Notes under the pieces: model-generated
Databases searched by the model: none
What the model was told of the DNA's origin: nothing
Seen by the model: only the letters and a program-made list of their open reading frames with translations
Program-made: the position numbers and the translations under genes
Source: Wenzhouxiangella sp. AB-CW3
GTDB lineage: Bacteria > Pseudomonadota > Gammaproteobacteria > Xanthomonadales > Wenzhouxiangellaceae
Reading direction: 5' to 3'
DNA: 64,000 nt
Assembly (NCBI RefSeq): GCF_014725735.1
Contig: NZ_CP061368.1
Coordinates: forward strand, 3,735,225-3,799,224
Shown: positions 52,702 through 64,000 of the stretch, in pieces
Layout: each line of letters starts with the position of its first letter
Position numbering within the stretch: the first letter of the stretch is position 1

Positions 52702-53858
52702 GGAAACTCTGAATAACTCCCGAATTTTGAGATAATAGCGCCACCTGATCAGAAACGGAATTCATCAATGGACCAGATGAGCTTTGCTGAAGCCGAGTAC
52801 CAGAACAAGAAGCGTAAAACCCGACGGGAGAAGTTTCTGGAACGCGTTGATTCATTGATTCCGTGGCCTCGGTTGGTCAAGAAGCTCAAAAGGCACTATC
52901 ACAAGGGCCGGACAGGTCGTCCACCGTATCCGCTGGAAACGATGCTGCGGATTCACTGCATGCAGCTTTTCTATAATCTCAGTGATCCTGGGATGGAGGA
53001 TGCACTCTACGAGATCGAGAGCATGCGGCGGTTTGCCGGGCTCAGGCTCTCGGATCGCCTGCCGGACGAGACCACCATTCTTAATTTCCGCCGGTTTCTG
53101 GAGCAGCGCAAACTGGGCAAAAAGCTGTTTGATGAAATCAACGGCTATCTGAATGAGCATGAGTTGATGCTGCGCGAGGGCAGCATTGTCGATGCCAGTA
53201 TTGTTGCGGCACCGAGCTCGACCAAGAACCAAAAGAAGGAACGCGATCCGGAAATGCACCAGACGAGAAAGGGCAACCAGTGGCATTTCGGGATGAAGGT
53301 TCATATTGGTGTGGACGATGAAATCGGTCTGATCCATAGCCTGGAGACGACGCCGGCCAACACCCATGACCTCGAAGTTGCTGAGAAGTTGTTACACGGC
53401 CAGGAGCAACGGGTGTTCGGCGATGCCGGATATCGAGGTATCGAAAAACGCGAAGCGCACCAGGAAAGAGAAGTTGACTGGTATATCGCCGAGCGTCCAG
53501 GAAAAAGAAAGATGATGGATCCGGATAGTTGGGAAGCCAAGGCAGAAAAGCTCAAGAGTCAGATCCGGGCCAAGGTTGAACATCCCTTTCGATACATGAA
53601 GCAGGTGTTCGGCTATAACAAGGTGCGCTACCGTGGTCAGGATAAGAATCGCAATCGGTTCCAGGTAATGGCTGGACTGACGAACCTGCTGATCGCAGAG
53701 AAATTGATCCCGACATAGGGTTATTCCGTCCGATTTCTGCCTGATCGGTGGAAATTGGTCAACAAATGATCAAAATCGAACATCAAACGGGGCCAAATCA
53801 TGCCCGATAGACAAAACGAAGGAAGTTGGCTGAAAATCATGCGTTGTTCAGAGCTTCC
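52702..53858 (+). mobile_element. IS5-family insertion sequence, complete
   Basis: The element is 1157 bases long with imperfect terminal repeats GGAAACTCTGAATAAC (left) and GGAAGCTCTGAACAAC (right, reverse complement), 14 of 16 matching. It is flanked by a perfect CTAA duplication (52698-52701 and 53859-53862), the usual IS5 target. The intact duplication and full-length transposase indicate recent insertion. Confidence 0.92.
52768..53718 (+). CDS. IS5-family transposase
   Basis: The 316-residue DDE transposase has an N-terminal IS5 domain (GRPPYPLETMLRIHCMQLFY), catalytic Asp in GSIVDASIV, Asp in FGDAGYRG and Glu in KVEHPFRYMKQVFGY. It fills most of the element and appears intact. Confidence 0.93.
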   Translation: MDQMSFAEAEYQNKKRKTRREKFLERVDSLIPWPRLVKKLKRHYHKGRTGRPPYPLETMLRIHCMQLFYNLSDPGMEDALYEIESMRRFAGLRLSDRLPDETTILNFRRFLEQRKLGKKLFDEINGYLNEHELMLREGSIVDASIVAAPSSTKNQKKERDPEMHQTRKGNQWHFGMKVHIGVDDEIGLIHSLETTPANTHDLEVAEKLLHGQEQRVFGDAGYRGIEKREAHQEREVDWYIAERPGKRKMMDPDSWEAKAEKLKSQIRAKVEHPFRYMKQVFGYNKVRYRGQDKNRNRFQVMAGLTNLLIAEKLIPT

Positions 53859-55068: not shown

Positions 55069-55095
55069 GAAGTTCTCCTGTATGCATAATGTTTG

Positions 55096-55175
55096 GGCTA
55101 ACCAGCGCCGTCACTGGGCCGCCCGGCTTTGCCGACCCGGAGTTTTCGGGGCTCCGGCTGAACCCTTCGTTAGAG
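55096..55175 (-). repeat. attC site
   Basis: On the minus strand an 80-bp site runs from CTCTAAC (R'') to GTTAGCC (R'). The L'' arm reads AAGGGTTCAGCCGGAG, nearly the same as in the attC at 56190. A GC-rich imperfect hairpin lies in the centre. It ends the cassette of the truncated gene at 55244-55870. Confidence 0.65.
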
Positions 55176-55870: not shown

Positions 55871-56189
55871 TCATGGGGCGTCCTGTAAAGTTTTGTTTTT
55901 GCGAACAAACAACACAGGAGGTTCGCCCCATGACCACGTCCAAGCTTATCGGAAAGCTGCTCAAGTTCAAAGGGTTTCGCTGTGTCGGCCTGGCTTTTCG
56001 ACGCGGTAATCGCCTTGATGTGCTGGTCAAGCCGTTCAAGAACGGCTGTCGGTGTCCGGATTGTGGCCGGCGCGGCACGATTGTCCGACAGCGACCTGAG
56101 CCCCGCTACTGTCGCGACATTCCGGTCGGGCCCTGGTCGATCTGGTTGATGTACTGGCCGCGCGAGATCCACTGCGTCACCCACGGCCG
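55869..56189 (+). mobile_element. ISL3-family remnant
   Basis: The left end begins near GGGGCGTCCTGTAAAG (55875). GGTCATGGGGCG at 55869-55880 recurs inverted at 55924-55935, around the transposase start. The right part of the IS is missing: sequence similar to ISL3 stops at 56189, exactly where the attC core at 56190 begins. Confidence 0.7.
55930..56189 (+). pseudogene. ISL3-family transposase, N-terminal fragment
   Basis: ATG 55930 has AGGAGG upstream. About 87 residues are kept: the N-terminal zinc finger (CRCPDCGRRG) and the conserved RYCRDIPVGPWSIWLMYWP through HCVTHGR. The frame then runs into the attC sequence. The DDE catalytic domain is lost, so it is not functional. Confidence 0.8.
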
Positions 56190-56250
56190 AGCCAACCCGG
56201 CGAAGCCGGCCAGGAGCTTACCCCGCGTCCGGTTGAACCCTTAGTTATGG
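56190..56250 (-). repeat. attC-like site fused to ISL3
   Basis: On the minus strand the site runs from CCATAAC (R'') at 56250-56244 through AAGGGTTCAACCGGAC and a CCGGC-TTCG-CCGG-type hairpin to GTTGGCT (R') at 56196-56190. The length is 61 bases. The L'' arm matches that of the attC at 55096-55175. Confidence 0.6.
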
Positions 56251-56668: not shown

Positions 56669-58506
56669 ATCGGGATAGGGAGGCACCTCACGATGCCTCT
56701 CCTCCCACACCACCGGGCATACGGATCACGTACCACGGCGGTTCGATGAACATCACTACCGCGCCACCAGGCTCGGTAGTCCCAAGTCAGCAAAATACCT
56801 CGCGGGCAGAGCCCGGTATAGCGCCGGGGTGTGCGACAGCCGCCACGGCCCGTGGGCCGATTTGGATGTCTGCCAGGCATCCCGCACGCTCACGCCACGA
56901 CGGCGAAGCTGGCGGTAGCCCGAGCGGCCCCATTGCTTCCAGAGATAACAGCGTAATCGTCGCCGCAGCCATTTGTCGATCTCGCGCAGTGGGCTCGGTA
57001 CTTCGGCAATCCCGAAGTACGCTTTCCATCCAAGCAGGTAGTCTCTCCAGTCTGCCACGACATCGGCCAAACGGTGGCCTCTCGTGCGGCGGGTCAGGAC
57101 CCGCAAGCGGGTTTTCAGCCGGTCCAGCGCCTTGGGCGACACTTTCAGCCGGTGATCCCCACGGGTGACCGTAAACCCCAAAAACTGGCGGTACCACGGT
57201 CGGTCGACCGCGCTTTTGCGTGTATTCACTTCGAGCCGGAGTGAGTCTTCGACAAAGCGCTTGATGCTGTTCATCACCCGCTCGCCGGCACGTTGACTCC
57301 GCACCAGTATCTGGCAGTCGTCAGCATATCGGACGAAGCGGTGGCCGCGCCGCTCGAGCTCCCAATCCAGCTCATCCAGCACCACGTTGGCCAGGACCGG
57401 TGACAGCGGGCCGCCTTTGCGGCACACCGGCATTCGTCGGGCTCCAGTGGTCTCCATCCATCACCCCGGCGGTCAGAAAACGGTTGATCAATCGCAGCAG
57501 ACGACGATCCGGGACATGATCCTTGAGCCGGCGCATCAACCGGTCGTGGTTGACCCGGTCGAAGAACGCCGCCAGGTCCAGGTCTACCGTCCACTGGCCG
57601 CCCGCCCGAATGTCGGCTTGCAGGCGCTTGAGAGCCTGGTGCGCCGACTTGCCCGGCCGGAAGCCATAGCTGCGGGGATGGAAGTGGGGGTCCCATTGCG
57701 CCGATACCACCTGCGCAACGGCTTGCTGGATGAAGCGGTCCAGAACCGTCGGGATGCCCAGCAGGCGTTCCCGTCCGTCGGCCTTGGGGATACGGACCCG
57801 CCGGACCGGTTGCGGGCGATACTGCCCCGCTTCCAGTTGATCGCGGATCGCAGGCCAGTTCTGGCGAAGGAAGTCCGGTAGTGCATCAACGCTCATCCCG
57901 TCAATGCCCGGCGCGCCCTTGTTCTGGCGTACTTGCTTGACTGCCCGCTGCAGGTTGCTGCGTTCCAGCACCTTCTCCCACAGCAAGACAGTGGATGTCG
58001 AGGCCGGATCGGTCCTTTCCCCAGTCACCGATTCCTCCCGTGCACGGGGCACGGCCGACTCGCGTCGATTCTCTGAGGCGGTCCGGTCACTCATACTCGG
58101 TCGATCATCCTCGTTCATCGTTCGGGCCTTCAGTGACGCCAATCACCTACTATGCCCTCGGCTGACTTCTCCCAGGCGGTCAGCGCCAATTGCTCAGCGC
58201 TCAGCTTCGCAAAGCGAAGCACCGGGGAGACCTCCCGGGGTAAGACACGAAACTGTCACGGCGTAGACGCTGGATTTATAAAACGCAGACCGATTGCAGA
58301 TGGAGGGCTTCATGGTCACGTGCCCACTGGCCCCGTCTACGTCACACCTCATATCCAGTTCCTGTTCGTCGCCCCGCCGCTTTGGATTGGGCTTCCTCCA
58401 GACCCCACCTCACGATGACGCCCTTGCCCTTCTCCTAACCTTCGGCTCTGCGAATACCTGGTAAGAGGACTTACACCTCTCTAGTCTCGTGCCATGCCCG
58501 GCACAC
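56669..58506 (-). mobile_element. Group IIC intron, copy 1
   Basis: On the minus strand it begins GTGTGCCGGGC (GUGYG consensus) at 58506 and ends CCCGAT at 56669, 1838 bases. Near the 3' end is the group IIC domain V (GAACCGCCGTGG ... GGTGGTGTGGGAGG) followed by a domain VI hairpin. The reverse transcriptase lies in domain IV. It sits in the R' box of the attC at 58507-58586. The 3' exon is TATCGCAC. One base longer than copies 2 and 3. Confidence 0.88.
56756..58118 (-). pseudogene. Group II intron reverse transcriptase, frameshifted
   Basis: The gene is identical in translation to copies 2 and 3 on both sides of one extra base at about 57416-57418 (CAAAGG instead of CAAGG). This shifts the frame within the conserved PQGG motif. 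The N-terminal part (to about residue 234) and the C-terminal part with YADD are therefore split. Splicing could still be helped in trans by copy 3. Confidence 0.85.
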
Positions 58507-58586
58507 ACGCCTAAGCTAAGCGGCGCGGCGTTAGCCGCGTCCGGTGGAGCGCGAAGTGCGGAACGAACTTGAGCGTTTTGTTATGC
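58507..58586 (-). repeat. attC interrupted by intron copy 1
   Basis: On the minus strand R'' is GCATAAC (58586-58580), followed by AAAACGCTCAAG, a GC-rich hairpin region and TTAGGC, then GT and the intron. The 3' exon TATC completes GTTATC after removal. The same attC recurs at 60839-60918. Confidence 0.75.
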
Positions 58587-58599
58587 ATTTTGCGGATGC

Positions 58600-58977
58600 T
58601 CAGAGATTTACGCTAACTCCCAAAACATAATCAGCGAATGGTGGCTTGGGGAATACACGACTACGTGCCTTTTCCTCAATGCACTGTGCAGCCTCAGATT
58701 CTGGAACGACCGTAGCCTGTGAAACTTCGCCATTTTCATTAATTACAACATAGATTGAGAATCTCTGCTTCTCACTACGCCCGGGCGGAGCACAGTCAAA
58801 CACGATGTCGAAGTCACCCCACAATATACCCAGGGCATCTCCAGAATAGGAGCCTTCGTCGTCAAAGAGCGCACAATCTCGGCTTCGCTCACGAAGCTCC
58901 TCTAATGAAAGCTCATCCGCCAACAGCGTTCCACTCAATAGAACTGCTACGGTGATACCGATACAGTATTTGTTCAT
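58600..58977 (-). CDS. Small secreted protein, cassette copy A
   Basis: The 125-residue product starts at ATG 58977, because an upstream frame to 59046 is intron sequence. It has a signal peptide (MNKYCIGITVAVLLSGTLLA) and a C-terminal half that resembles TonB-C/AgmX-type domains (YVVINENGEVSQATVVPES, FPKPP). The two mature cysteines near the ends of that region may pair. Function unknown. It is identical to the copy at 60932-61309. Confidence 0.75.
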   Translation of the reverse strand: MNKYCIGITVAVLLSGTLLADELSLEELRERSRDCALFDDEGSYSGDALGILWGDFDIVFDCAPPGRSEKQRFSIYVVINENGEVSQATVVPESEAAQCIEEKARSRVFPKPPFADYVLGVSVNL

Positions 58978-59001
58978 GCGAATTAACTCTGGTAATGCAT
59001 A

Positions 59002-60838
59002 ATCGGGATAGGGAGGCACCTCACGATGCCTCTCCTCCCACACCACCGGGCATACGGATCACGTACCACGGCGGTTCGATGAACATCACTACCGCGCCAC
59101 CAGGCTCGGTAGTCCCAAGTCAGCAAAATACCTCGCGGGCAGAGCCCGGTATAGCGCCGGGGTGTGCGACAGCCGCCACGGCCCGTGGGCCGATTTGGAT
59201 GTCTGCCAGGCATCCCGCACGCTCACGCCACGACGGCGAAGCTGGCGGTAGCCCGAGCGGCCCCATTGCTTCCAGAGATAACAGCGTAATCGTCGCCGCA
59301 GCCATTTGTCGATCTCGCGCAGTGGGCTCGGTACTTCGGCAATCCCGAAGTACGCTTTCCATCCAAGCAGGTAGTCTCTCCAGTCTGCCACGACATCGGC
59401 CAAACGGTGGCCTCTCGTGCGGCGGGTCAGGACCCGCAAGCGGGTTTTCAGCCGGTCCAGCGCCTTGGGCGACACTTTCAGCCGGTGATCCCCACGGGTG
59501 ACCGTAAACCCCAAAAACTGGCGGTACCACGGTCGGTCGACCGCGCTTTTGCGTGTATTCACTTCGAGCCGGAGTGAGTCTTCGACAAAGCGCTTGATGC
59601 TGTTCATCACCCGCTCGCCGGCACGTTGACTCCGCACCAGTATCTGGCAGTCGTCAGCATATCGGACGAAGCGGTGGCCGCGCCGCTCGAGCTCCCAATC
59701 CAGCTCATCCAGCACCACGTTGGCCAGGACCGGTGACAGCGGGCCGCTTTGCGGCACACCGGCATTCGTCGGGCTCCAGTGGTCTCCATCCATCACCCCG
59801 GCGGTCAGAAAACGGTTGATCAATCGCAGCAGACGACGATCCGGGACATGATCCTTGAGCCGGCGCATCAACCGGTCGTGGTTGACCCGGTCGAAGAACG
59901 CCGCCAGGTCCAGGTCTACCGTCCACTGGCCGCCCGCCCGAATGTCGGCTTGCAGGCGCTTGAGAGCCTGGTGCGCCGACTTGCCCGGCCGGAAGCCATA
60001 GCTGCGGGGATGGAAGTGGGGGTCCCATTGCGCCGATACCACCTGCGCAACGGCTTGCTGGATGAAGCGGTCCAGAACCGTCGGGATGCCCAGCAGGCGT
60101 TCCCGTCCGTCGGCCTTGGGGATACGGACCCGCCGGACCGGTTGCGGGCGATACTGCCCCGCTTCCAGTTGATCGCGGATCGCAGGCCAGTTCTGGCGAA
60201 GGAAGTCCGGTAGTGCATCAACGCTCATCCCGTCAATGCCCGGCGCGCCCTTGTTCTGGCGTACTTGCTTGACTGCCCGCTGCAGGTTGCTGCGTTCCAG
60301 CACCTTCTCCCACAGCAAGACAGTGGATGTCGAGGCCGGATCGGTCCTTTCCCCAGTCACCGATTCCTCCCGTGCACGGGGCACGGCCGACTCGCGTCGA
60401 TTCTCTGAGGCGGTCCGGTCACTCATACTCGGTCGATCATCCTCGTTCATCGTTCGGGCCTTCAGTGACGCCAATCACCTACTATGCCCTCGGCTGACTT
60501 CTCCCAGGCGGTCAGCGCCAATTGCTCAGCGCTCAGCTTCGCAAAGCGAAGCACCGGGGAGACCTCCCGGGGTAAGACACGAAACTGTCACGGCGTAGAC
60601 GCTGGATTTATAAAACGCAGACCGATTGCAGATGGAGGGCTTCATGGTCACGTGCCCACTGGCCCCGTCTACGTCACACCTCATATCCAGTTCCTGTTCG
60701 TCGCCCCGCCGCTTTGGATTGGGCTTCCTCCAGACCCCACCTCACGATGACGCCCTTGCCCTTCTCCTAACCTTCGGCTCTGCGAATACCTGGTAAGAGG
60801 ACTTACACCTCTCTAGTCTCGTGCCATGCCCGGCACAC
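59002..60838 (-). mobile_element. Group IIC intron, copy 2
   Basis: It has the same ends as copy 1 (GTGTGCC ... CCCGAT), with length 1837. The 5' exon ends GGCGT and the 3' exon begins TATGCATTACC, so removal restores GTTATGC. It lies between two identical cassettes. Confidence 0.9.
59089..60450 (-). CDS. Group IIC intron reverse transcriptase/maturase, PQSG variant
   Basis: The 453-residue protein begins at ATG 60450 (MNEDDRPSMSDR). It has the RT domains with APGIDGMSVD, SYGFRPGKSAHQA, YADD near 264-267, and the maturase X domain ending GLPSLVAR. No endonuclease domain is present, as in group IIC. The otherwise invariant PQGGPLSP reads PQSGPLSP at about residue 235, which may reduce activity. 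Confidence 0.9.
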   Translation of the reverse strand: MNEDDRPSMSDRTASENRRESAVPRAREESVTGERTDPASTSTVLLWEKVLERSNLQRAVKQVRQNKGAPGIDGMSVDALPDFLRQNWPAIRDQLEAGQYRPQPVRRVRIPKADGRERLLGIPTVLDRFIQQAVAQVVSAQWDPHFHPRSYGFRPGKSAHQALKRLQADIRAGGQWTVDLDLAAFFDRVNHDRLMRRLKDHVPDRRLLRLINRFLTAGVMDGDHWSPTNAGVPQSGPLSPVLANVVLDELDWELERRGHRFVRYADDCQILVRSQRAGERVMNSIKRFVEDSLRLEVNTRKSAVDRPWYRQFLGFTVTRGDHRLKVSPKALDRLKTRLRVLTRRTRGHRLADVVADWRDYLLGWKAYFGIAEVPSPLREIDKWLRRRLRCYLWKQWGRSGYRQLRRRGVSVRDAWQTSKSAHGPWRLSHTPALYRALPARYFADLGLPSLVAR

Positions 60839-60918
60839 ACGCCTAAGCTAAGCGGCGCGGCGTTAGCCGCGTCCGGTGGAGCGCGAAGTGCGGAACGAAC
60901 TTGAGCGTTTTGTTATGC
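60839..60918 (-). repeat. attC interrupted by intron copy 2
   Basis: It has the same sequence as 58507-58586 (R'' GCATAAC at 60918-60912). It ends GT at the intron 5' junction. The remaining TATGC is found beyond the intron at 59001-58997, giving an exact R'/R'' pair after removal. Confidence 0.8.
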
Positions 60919-60931
60919 ATTTTGCGGATGC

Positions 60932-61309
60932 TCAGAGATTTACGCTAACTCCCAAAACATAATCAGCGAATGGTGGCTTGGGGAATACACGACTACGTGC
61001 CTTTTCCTCAATGCACTGTGCAGCCTCAGATTCTGGAACGACCGTAGCCTGTGAAACTTCGCCATTTTCATTAATTACAACATAGATTGAGAATCTCTGC
61101 TTCTCACTACGCCCGGGCGGAGCACAGTCAAACACGATGTCGAAGTCACCCCACAATATACCCAGGGCATCTCCAGAATAGGAGCCTTCGTCGTCAAAGA
61201 GCGCACAATCTCGGCTTCGCTCACGAAGCTCCTCTAATGAAAGCTCATCCGCCAACAGCGTTCCACTCAATAGAACTGCTACGGTGATACCGATACAGTA
61301 TTTGTTCAT
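60932..61309 (-). CDS. Small secreted protein, cassette copy B
   Basis: The 125-residue product is identical to that of 58600-58977, including the signal peptide and the TonB-C-like region. It begins 24 bases after the 3' exon junction of intron copy 3. No strong Shine-Dalgarno sequence is present. It is the upstream one of the two tandem copies in the direction of transcription. Confidence 0.75.
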   Translation of the reverse strand: MNKYCIGITVAVLLSGTLLADELSLEELRERSRDCALFDDEGSYSGDALGILWGDFDIVFDCAPPGRSEKQRFSIYVVINENGEVSQATVVPESEAAQCIEEKARSRVFPKPPFADYVLGVSVNL

Positions 61310-61333
61310 GCGAATTAACTCTGGTAATGCATA

Positions 61334-63170
61334 ATCGGGATAGGGAGGCACCTCACGATGCCTCTCCTCCCACACCACCGGGCATACGGATCACGTACCA
61401 CGGCGGTTCGATGAACATCACTACCGCGCCACCAGGCTCGGTAGTCCCAAGTCAGCAAAATACCTCGCGGGCAGAGCCCGGTATAGCGCCGGGGTGTGCG
61501 ACAGCCGCCACGGCCCGTGGGCCGATTTGGATGTCTGCCAGGCATCCCGCACGCTCACGCCACGACGGCGAAGCTGGCGGTAGCCCGAGCGGCCCCATTG
61601 CTTCCAGAGATAACAGCGTAATCGTCGCCGCAGCCATTTGTCGATCTCGCGCAGTGGGCTCGGTACTTCGGCAATCCCGAAGTACGCTTTCCATCCAAGC
61701 AGGTAGTCTCTCCAGTCTGCCACGACATCGGCCAAACGGTGGCCTCTCGTGCGGCGGGTCAGGACCCGCAAGCGGGTTTTCAGCCGGTCCAGCGCCTTGG
61801 GCGACACTTTCAGCCGGTGATCCCCACGGGTGACCGTAAACCCCAAAAACTGGCGGTACCACGGTCGGTCGACCGCGCTTTTGCGTGTATTCACTTCGAG
61901 CCGGAGTGAGTCTTCGACAAAGCGCTTGATGCTGTTCATCACCCGCTCGCCGGCACGTTGACTCCGCACCAGTATCTGGCAGTCGTCAGCATATCGGACG
62001 AAGCGGTGGCCGCGCCGCTCGAGCTCCCAATCCAGCTCATCCAGCACCACGTTGGCCAGGACCGGTGACAGCGGGCCGCCTTGCGGCACACCGGCATTCG
62101 TCGGGCTCCAGTGGTCTCCATCCATCACCCCGGCGGTCAGAAAACGGTTGATCAATCGCAGCAGACGACGATCCGGGACATGATCCTTGAGCCGGCGCAT
62201 CAACCGGTCGTGGTTGACCCGGTCGAAGAACGCCGCCAGGTCCAGGTCTACCGTCCACTGGCCGCCCGCCCGAATGTCGGCTTGCAGGCGCTTGAGAGCC
62301 TGGTGCGCCGACTTGCCCGGCCGGAAGCCATAGCTGCGGGGATGGAAGTGGGGGTCCCATTGCGCCGATACCACCTGCGCAACGGCTTGCTGGATGAAGC
62401 GGTCCAGAACCGTCGGGATGCCCAGCAGGCGTTCCCGTCCGTCGGCCTTGGGGATACGGACCCGCCGGACCGGTTGCGGGCGATACTGCCCCGCTTCCAG
62501 TTGATCGCGGATCGCAGGCCAGTTCTGGCGAAGGAAGTCCGGTAGTGCATCAACGCTCATCCCGTCAATGCCCGGCGCGCCCTTGTTCTGGCGTACTTGC
62601 TTGACTGCCCGCTGCAGGTTGCTGCGTTCCAGCACCTTCTCCCACAGCAAGACAGTGGATGTCGAGGCCGGATCGGTCCTTTCCCCAGTCACCGATTCCT
62701 CCCGTGCACGGGGCACGGCCGACTCGCGTCGATTCTCTGAGGCGGTCCGGTCACTCATACTCGGTCGATCATCCTCGTTCATCGTTCGGGCCTTCAGTGA
62801 CGCCAATCACCTACTATGCCCTCGGCTGACTTCTCCCAGGCGGTCAGCGCCAATTGCTCAGCGCTCAGCTTCGCAAAGCGAAGCACCGGGGAGACCTCCC
62901 GGGGTAAGACACGAAACTGTCACGGCGTAGACGCTGGATTTATAAAACGCAGACCGATTGCAGATGGAGGGCTTCATGGTCACGTGCCCACTGGCCCCGT
63001 CTACGTCACACCTCATATCCAGTTCCTGTTCGTCGCCCCGCCGCTTTGGATTGGGCTTCCTCCAGACCCCACCTCACGATGACGCCCTTGCCCTTCTCCT
63101 AACCTTCGGCTCTGCGAATACCTGGTAAGAGGACTTACACCTCTCTAGTCTCGTGCCATGCCCGGCACAC
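61334..63170 (-). mobile_element. Group IIC intron, copy 3, intact
   Basis: It is 1837 bases, from GTGTGCCGGGC at 63170 to CCCGAT at 61334. Domain V lies at about 61368-61410, directly after the RT stop, and domain VI follows. It interrupts the attC of the beta-lactamase cassette; 5' exon CCAGCGT and 3' exon TATGC. Confidence 0.92.
61421..62782 (-). CDS. Group IIC intron reverse transcriptase/maturase, intact
   Basis: The 453-residue protein is full length with the canonical PQGGPLSP at about 233-240 and YADD at about 264-267. The C-terminal maturase region is typical of group IIC-attC introns (GWKAYFGIA, WLRRRLRCYLWKQWGR). ATG 62782 with GAAGG upstream is preferred over a TTG at 62806. It is the only one of the three copies that looks fully functional and may serve all three introns. 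Confidence 0.93.
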   Translation of the reverse strand: MNEDDRPSMSDRTASENRRESAVPRAREESVTGERTDPASTSTVLLWEKVLERSNLQRAVKQVRQNKGAPGIDGMSVDALPDFLRQNWPAIRDQLEAGQYRPQPVRRVRIPKADGRERLLGIPTVLDRFIQQAVAQVVSAQWDPHFHPRSYGFRPGKSAHQALKRLQADIRAGGQWTVDLDLAAFFDRVNHDRLMRRLKDHVPDRRLLRLINRFLTAGVMDGDHWSPTNAGVPQGGPLSPVLANVVLDELDWELERRGHRFVRYADDCQILVRSQRAGERVMNSIKRFVEDSLRLEVNTRKSAVDRPWYRQFLGFTVTRGDHRLKVSPKALDRLKTRLRVLTRRTRGHRLADVVADWRDYLLGWKAYFGIAEVPSPLREIDKWLRRRLRCYLWKQWGRSGYRQLRRRGVSVRDAWQTSKSAHGPWRLSHTPALYRALPARYFADLGLPSLVAR

Positions 63171-63228
63171 ACGCTGGACATAACCGGCGCCCGCGAAGCG
63201 GGCGTCCGAGTTGATGGATCTGTTAGGC
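63171..63228 (-). repeat. attC of the beta-lactamase cassette, interrupted by intron copy 3
   Basis: On the minus strand R'' is GCCTAAC (63228-63222, perfect RYYYAAC), followed by CAACTCGGACGCCCGC, TTC, GCGGGCGCCGG, CCAGC and GT. With the TATGC beyond the intron it forms a 63-base attC. It lies 10 bases after the beta-lactamase stop. Confidence 0.85.
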
Positions 63229-63238
63229 TCGAAGGTAC

Positions 63239-64000
63239 TCACAGCACGCCCAGTGCCTTCAGACTTGCCATGCCTAGTTGGACACGTTTACCAGCATCAG
63301 ATGGTTGATGAATATCCATGTTCATCGCAAAGGTGAACAAGCTATCCTCTTTCTCGACCCAGCCAACCCACCACCCGATGCCAGGTTCCGGCGCGTTTTC
63401 CCAGCCCGTCTTGCCATAGAGCTTCCAGCCCTCCCCCTGCTCAAGGAGCACGATTTCTCGGACGGCAGACTGAAGCTTTGCGGAGATTGGGAGCTGATTC
63501 CGCGCCAATCGCAGCAGAAACTCGGTTTGTTCGATGGCACTGATCTCAAGGGGGCCATCTAGCCAGAACCTATCGACACTAGCGCCAATATCGTTGTTGC
63601 CGAAATCCAGACTGGCGAGATTCTTGCGCATTGACTCGGTGCCGATGCGCCGGGCCAGCTCCTGATACACGGGGACATTGGAAGCGGTGATGGCCTCCCT
63701 CAGCCCCATGTCCTTTTCCCACGCCTTGATGACCTGTGGCTGGCCGCCGTATGGTAGCACTTCGTCCACACTTTCAACGGCTCCGACGGAAAGCCCGATA
63801 AGACTGTTGGGAATCTTGAAAGTGGAGGCAGGCACAAAGCGTGTTTTGGCTCTTGACTGGTTATAGCCCGAGAAACTGCCGGTAGCTGCGTCAAGTAGGA
63901 CAAAGGTACCCGTGACTTCGGCGTCTCGGAACAAGCCTTCAATCTCCGTGCTTTCCTTCCAGCTGGAGGAACAGCCAGAAAGTCCAATGGAGAAGATTAG
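63239..64000 (-). CDS. Class D (OXA-type) beta-lactamase, 5' end outside the window
   Basis: The frame is open to base 64000 (254 codons), so the start lies outside. It shows the class D motifs: STFK with the active serine, SNV, FGN (a known variant of YGN), WLDGPL, KTGWENAP and WWVGWVE. The visible N-terminus (IFSIGLSGCSSS) has a lipobox, so the enzyme may be a membrane-anchored lipoprotein. It is a gene cassette with its own attC. Substrate range cannot be predicted. Confidence 0.92.
   Translation of the reverse strand, partial: LIFSIGLSGCSSSWKESTEIEGLFRDAEVTGTFVLLDAATGSFSGYNQSRAKTRFVPASTFKIPNSLIGLSVGAVESVDEVLPYGGQPQVIKAWEKDMGLREAITASNVPVYQELARRIGTESMRKNLASLDFGNNDIGASVDRFWLDGPLEISAIEQTEFLLRLARNQLPISAKLQSAVREIVLLEQGEGWKLYGKTGWENAPEPGIGWWVGWVEKEDSLFTFAMNMDIHQPSDAGKRVQLGMASLKALGVL

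Follow-up and report, generated by a model that had tools for sequence, protein, structure and literature searches.

The most informative result of this analysis is that the group II introns of the chromosomal integron of Wenzhouxiangella sp. AB-CW3 insert into the top strand of attC, read in the sense of the cassettes and belong to a distinct lineage with an EBS1 of its own. The window (the whole stretch of 64,000 nucleotides that was analysed) spans 3735225-3799224 on a complete chromosome of 3.84 Mb and holds three of these introns (c1-c3) in a tandem array with two copies of one cassette, X. The array probably arose as a group IIC intron that targets the top strand of attC spread through the integron, with two insertions followed by one unequal RecA-type crossover that duplicated X.

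The intron-cassette array and its integron

Read 5' to 3' on the minus strand, the array runs beta-lactamase gene, attC, c3, X, attC, c2, X, attC, c1 and the start of the next cassette. The features are as follows, in window coordinates unless marked as genome positions.

63239..64000, minus strand, class D beta-lactamase cassette gene (OXA-50-like), extending past the window end
63171..63226, minus strand, attC of the beta-lactamase cassette, R' split by c3
61334..63170, minus strand, group IIC intron c3, 1837 nt, in R' of the attC of the class D beta-lactamase cassette, intron-encoded protein (IEP) intact
62982..62985, minus strand, predicted EBS1 (ACGU) of c3, in terminal loop GCACGUGA of domain I, expected to pair with IBS1 RCGU of attC R'
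61421..62806, minus strand, RT/maturase of c3, 461 aa, RVT_1 and GIIM
61334..61408, minus strand, domain V/VI of c3, a weak Rfam Intron_gpII match ending at 61334
60839..61333, minus strand, cassette X copy 1, 495 bp between introns
60932..61309, minus strand, ORF of X copy 1, 125 aa, apparent signal peptide (by eye)
60839..60917, minus strand, attC of X copy 1, from R'' GCATAAC to ..GCGT, R' split by c2
59002..60838, minus strand, group IIC intron c2, 1837 nt, in R' of the attC of the upstream X copy, IEP open with PQG changed to PQS
59089..60474, minus strand, IEP of c2, 461 aa, Gly to Ser in the PQGG motif
58507..59001, minus strand, cassette X copy 2, 100% identical to copy 1
58600..58977, minus strand, ORF of X copy 2, 125 aa
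58507..58585, minus strand, attC of X copy 2, R' split by c1
56669..58506, minus strand, group IIC intron c1, 1838 nt, in R' of the attC of the second X copy, IEP frameshifted by 1 nt
56756..58142, minus strand, IEP of c1, split by a 1-nt insertion into two frames, 57372-58142 and 56756-57457
56188..56249, minus strand, truncated attC after the cassette downstream of c1
55085..55173, minus strand, last recognisable attC of the array, R' CATTATGC
genome 3826971-3827912, integron integrase gene, 470 bits against a cut-off of 265

Three marks served to place the intron boundaries: the GT that is shared, GTGTGCC as the 5' end of a group II intron and CCCGAT as the end of domain V/VI. With these boundaries the three introns are direct copies in register, spaced by 2332/2333 and 2332 nt with a period of 2332, exactly the repeat unit and the outer limits (56669-63170) that an earlier note on this DNA had given for three nearly identical introns. 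The same note had placed an identical cassette between the introns, and the two copies of X do match at 495/495 positions, but there are only two of them for three introns. Copies c1-c3 differ by 0 or 1 substitutions (zero between c1 and c3) and one indel, all at a single A-run/G-run spot in the RT frame that reads A2G2, A3G1 or A3G2 and at which the c2 IEP has GVPQSGP for GVPQGGP. These homopolymer-like differences may be consensus noise, and the frameshift in the c1 IEP is possibly a consensus error. Both c3 and c4 (one of the copies outside the window) are full length with an intact ORF.

Assignment of the window introns to class C, as the earlier note proposed, is borne out by protein and ribozyme sequence. 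The domain search of the c3 IEP gave RVT_1 and GIIM only, with no endonuclease domain found, and the best PDB match of the RT is the GsI-IIC RT (E 2.7e-123). Each of the three introns matches Rfam group-II-D1D4-3 (123 bits, E 7.7e-25) and D1D4-1, the same families as in Kl.pn.I3 relatives, and the ends GUGUG..GAU agree with the IIC ribozyme (5' GUGYG, 3' AY), the domain V/VI match of c3 to Intron_gpII being below threshold (24.9 bits against a gathering score of 40). The hairpin upstream of a short IBS1 is here the attC top-strand hairpin, followed by RCGT in six of the seven copies and by TCGT in c6.

About 19 attC sites, all on the minus strand, extend leftward from the integrase gene into the window to about 55.1 kb. 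An intI gene, attC sites and cassettes in series, with cassette ORFs mostly on one strand, make up an integron. Seven of these sites hold the intron, c1-c3 in the window and c4-c7 just past its end, beyond the view of the earlier note, which had counted three; the seven 1.8-kb copies fall within 30 kb. While c4 is intact, c5 carries a 74-nt insertion at genome 3805145-3805182 made up of 38 nt of new sequence and 36 nt of duplicated intron sequence, c6 is interrupted by one insertion element and c7 by two, and c4-c7 differ among themselves by 9-14. The same 1650-bp insertion element lies in c6 and c7 in opposite orientations (genome 3812261-3813910 and 3815863-3817512, 98.8% identical), the second insertion in c7 being different. 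Two 316-aa transposase-like ORFs with the same N-terminal sequence lie at 52768-53718, near the far end of the array, and at genome 3805953-3806903, beside c5. A truncated intron copy (92%) follows an attC at genome 1910098-1910901, 1.9 Mb from the array, which suggests a stray attC cluster or integron remnant.

The class D beta-lactamase is a cassette of this chromosomal integron; the OXA-50-like call was made via NCBIfam below the family cut-off. Its attC is short, about 57 nt as against roughly 90 nt for most attC sites of the array. The 125-aa product of X matched no Pfam or NCBIfam family, and searches of plasmids and of 368 further genomes of the class turned up no homologue. The earlier note had proposed searching related genomes for a single-copy or intron-free locus; among 29 other genomes of the genus neither state was found, nor was cassette X itself. 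The final 144 bases of the intron, at 100% identity, stand at the end of one contig from the same genus (contig 51 of G018), before a different 3' flank, TACACC, and the contig break suggests that the intron is repeated there. A search of E. coli genomes and plasmids for near matches returned one plasmid match (73%) and none among the E. coli genomes, and no description of a tandem intron-cassette array was found in the literature searched.

Strand, EBS1 and lineage of the introns

All seven copies split attC R' at CGT|TA on the top strand and lie sense to the cassettes: the minus strand carries the introns, the ORFs of the beta-lactamase and of X, and the attC sites alike. The earlier note was right that R' cores are split in every unit of the tandem array, but the break it placed at the G^TT exchange point lies between the two Ts, one base 3' of that point. 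There are six distinct 5' attC exons for the seven copies, c1 and c2 alone sharing one because X is duplicated, and 8 of the 11 vacant full-length attC sites in the array retain the CGTT target. Published IIC-attC introns enter the bottom-strand R'' at TTGT/T and are antisense to the cassettes (PMC7923331; background on canonical IIC introns was drawn from PMC7923331, PMC9229058 and PMC8876359), an arrangement confirmed here for Kl.pn.I3-type introns beside blaIMP-4 and dfrA16, using pIMP-HK1504 in place of KX711880. None of the seven copies lies in a bottom-strand R'' at TTGT/T or runs opposite to the cassettes, and the window introns are not of the described IIC-attC kind.

That they are nonetheless ordinary members of the published group is highly improbable. 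The window introns do share with the S.ma.I2/Kl.pn.I3 type a class C RT without endonuclease domain, the IIC ribozyme, the attC target and a split at GT|TA of the core site after a hairpin. The published introns, however, take the bottom-strand R'' (IBS1 TTGT, EBS1 ACAA) and run antisense, whereas the window introns take the top-strand R' (IBS1 RCGT, EBS1 ACGU), run sense and fall in a different clade; strand, orientation, 5' exon, EBS1 and phylogeny thus all contradict that identity. The earlier note, which took these to be the known attC-targeting IIC introns, had the class and the attC target right but missed the top-strand, sense lineage, while the R' site, the tandem arrangement and the economy of recombination held. 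Terminator-targeting IIC introns resemble the window introns in their class C RT, 5' exon hairpin and short IBS1, but use a U-rich IBS1 after an intrinsic terminator in place of the attC site used here.

The strand difference is mirrored in the terminal loop of domain I, which reads GC-ACGU-GA in the top-strand clade and GC-ACAA-GA in bottom-strand introns. The candidate EBS1 was extracted by alignment and its four loop bases scored against the last four of the 5' exon. Pairing averaged 3.51 of 4 over 68 introns against 2.20 with shuffled exons (maximum 2.62 in 20,000 shuffles), and 3.36 against 2.13 with the top-strand clade left out, the shuffles ignoring relatedness and the top-strand clade having nearly one EBS1. 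In this alignment EBS1 and IBS1 covary across the 68 introns and the loop is very likely EBS1, and the difference in it between ACGU and ACAA accounts for the targeting of RCGT|T (R', top strand) by the one group and of TTGT|T (R'', bottom strand) by the other.

In a tree of 106 RTs, in which bottom-strand introns are represented by only three rows, the window intron falls within a 28-row clade (SH-aLRT 100) with introns of Marinobacter, Halomonas, HdN1, Dechloromonas, Acidithiobacillus and others and of the plasmids pPp47, pR148 and pKC-Na-R1, the last two carrying the same intron. It does not group with the known IIC-attC clade, the bottom-strand introns forming a remote clade on a long branch. 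Within the clade and its close sisters, all 26 of the 5' junctions that could be read end in CGT, as do none outside. Most clade 5' exons are recognisable attC sites, those of L026, L029 and L032 being degenerate or other hairpins; a generic attC score separated clade and outgroup exons poorly, but the CGT junction and inspection of R'', L'' and L' did separate them. That the window introns belong to a lineage separate from the published attC-targeting IIC introns is well supported by these comparisons.

The introns of pR148, Shewanella algae pKC-Na-R1 (after aadA1) and pPp47 (in a blaIMP-4 array) belong to the window clade and share CGT|TA on the top strand and EBS1 ACGU, but are single copies in mobile integrons with no tandem cassette, and their IEPs are 60-63% identical to that of the window. 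In the gamma proteobacterium HdN1, four near-identical copies of the same lineage and orientation occupy four attC sites, although these are all different and not in tandem. A same-orientation intron in S. algae KC-Na-R1 has been recorded as an exception (PMC9229058), and PMC7923331 describes a top-strand case in Enterobacter cloacae (Rodriguez-Martinez 2012). Such same-orientation cases have so far been reported as oddities only. A broader proposal, to which we would give slightly less than an even chance, is that a separate IIC lineage evolved attC targeting independently, the EBS1 switch of ACGU for ACAA moving insertion from R'' on the bottom strand to R' on the top strand, with introns that sit sense, splice from the cassette transcript, freeze integrase sites and give copy-number control to homologous recombination between introns.

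Origin of the duplicated cassette

In the preferred reading, EBS1 ACGU would pair with the RCGU closing the 5' exon at attC R', the top-strand attC hairpin taking the place of the terminator hairpin used by other IIC introns, and reverse splicing would occur between the two Ts of G^TT, an insertion point from which the intron would always read with the cassettes. Two insertions, into the attC of the beta-lactamase cassette and the attC of X, would have created 1.84-kb direct repeats, and one unequal RecA-type crossover between them would yield intron-X-intron-X-intron. We infer the crossover from the make-up of the array, in which X is the sole duplicated cassette and also the sole cassette flanked directly by introns on both sides; this is a stronger argument than near-identity. 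The absence of substitutions between c1 and c3 and five changes that c1-c3 share and c4-c7 lack also speak for it. The earlier note also favoured recombination over three independent insertions, and that remains the more economical reading, but near-identity by itself is no argument for it: in HdN1, the copies in the four attC sites are only 1-8 nt apart over 1844, and near-identity thus also fits separate insertions. Exchange among the copies is further suggested by four-gamete conflicts at 30/105 site pairs, which could include recurrent mutation.

The integrase could instead have duplicated X first (X-X), the intron then retrohoming separately into three consecutive attC sites. The lineage does repeatedly enter different attC sites of one array, separately inserted copies can be near-identical (1 nt in HdN1) and the CGTT target is widely kept in the vacant sites. 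Yet this sequence of events needs a cassette duplication and three insertions where two insertions and a crossover suffice, no other cassette of the array is duplicated, and, given the five changes that c1-c3 share and c4-c7 lack, the source of the three would have to be a member of the trio; we regard it as unlikely, at perhaps one chance in several. Still less probable is an assembly artefact in which one or two units were expanded to three. The copy number of the intron-X unit rests on one assembly, the region is rich in 1.8-kb repeats, and the homopolymer-length differences among c1-c3 are typical of an uncertain long-read consensus; against this, the genome assembled into one contig at 99.99% completeness, the array has unique flanks on both sides with distinct flanks at all other intron copies, and the unit is short relative to ordinary long reads.

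Predicted consequences for cassette expression and stability

Unlike antisense introns, these would on splicing from the array transcript restore the exon junction and attC, and cassettes further downstream could then be read. At the DNA level R' is GTGTGCC in place of GTTRRRY, and excision of X by the integrase should therefore fail at the split sites, with a predicted loss of integrase activity there. The cassettes would be locked in with respect to the integrase only, as the 1.84-kb direct repeats should make X easy to gain or lose via RecA. With an apparent dnaA at the contig start (ORF read by eye), both the array and its introns would be co-directional with the replication fork, and the strand they target would serve as template for lagging-strand synthesis, which would fit primer use by introns without an endonuclease.

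Published work (Leon and Roy 2009, cited in PMC7923331) proposes that cassette formation includes recombination after intron insertion, and the present array likely provides a natural example of a cassette affected by recombination between introns. The rule linking EBS1-IBS1 pairing to strand choice is directly testable. Integron introns are usually described as antisense, and a sense lineage able to splice from the array transcript would, if true, be a different arrangement, one whose lineage is also found in class 1 integrons on multidrug-resistance plasmids.
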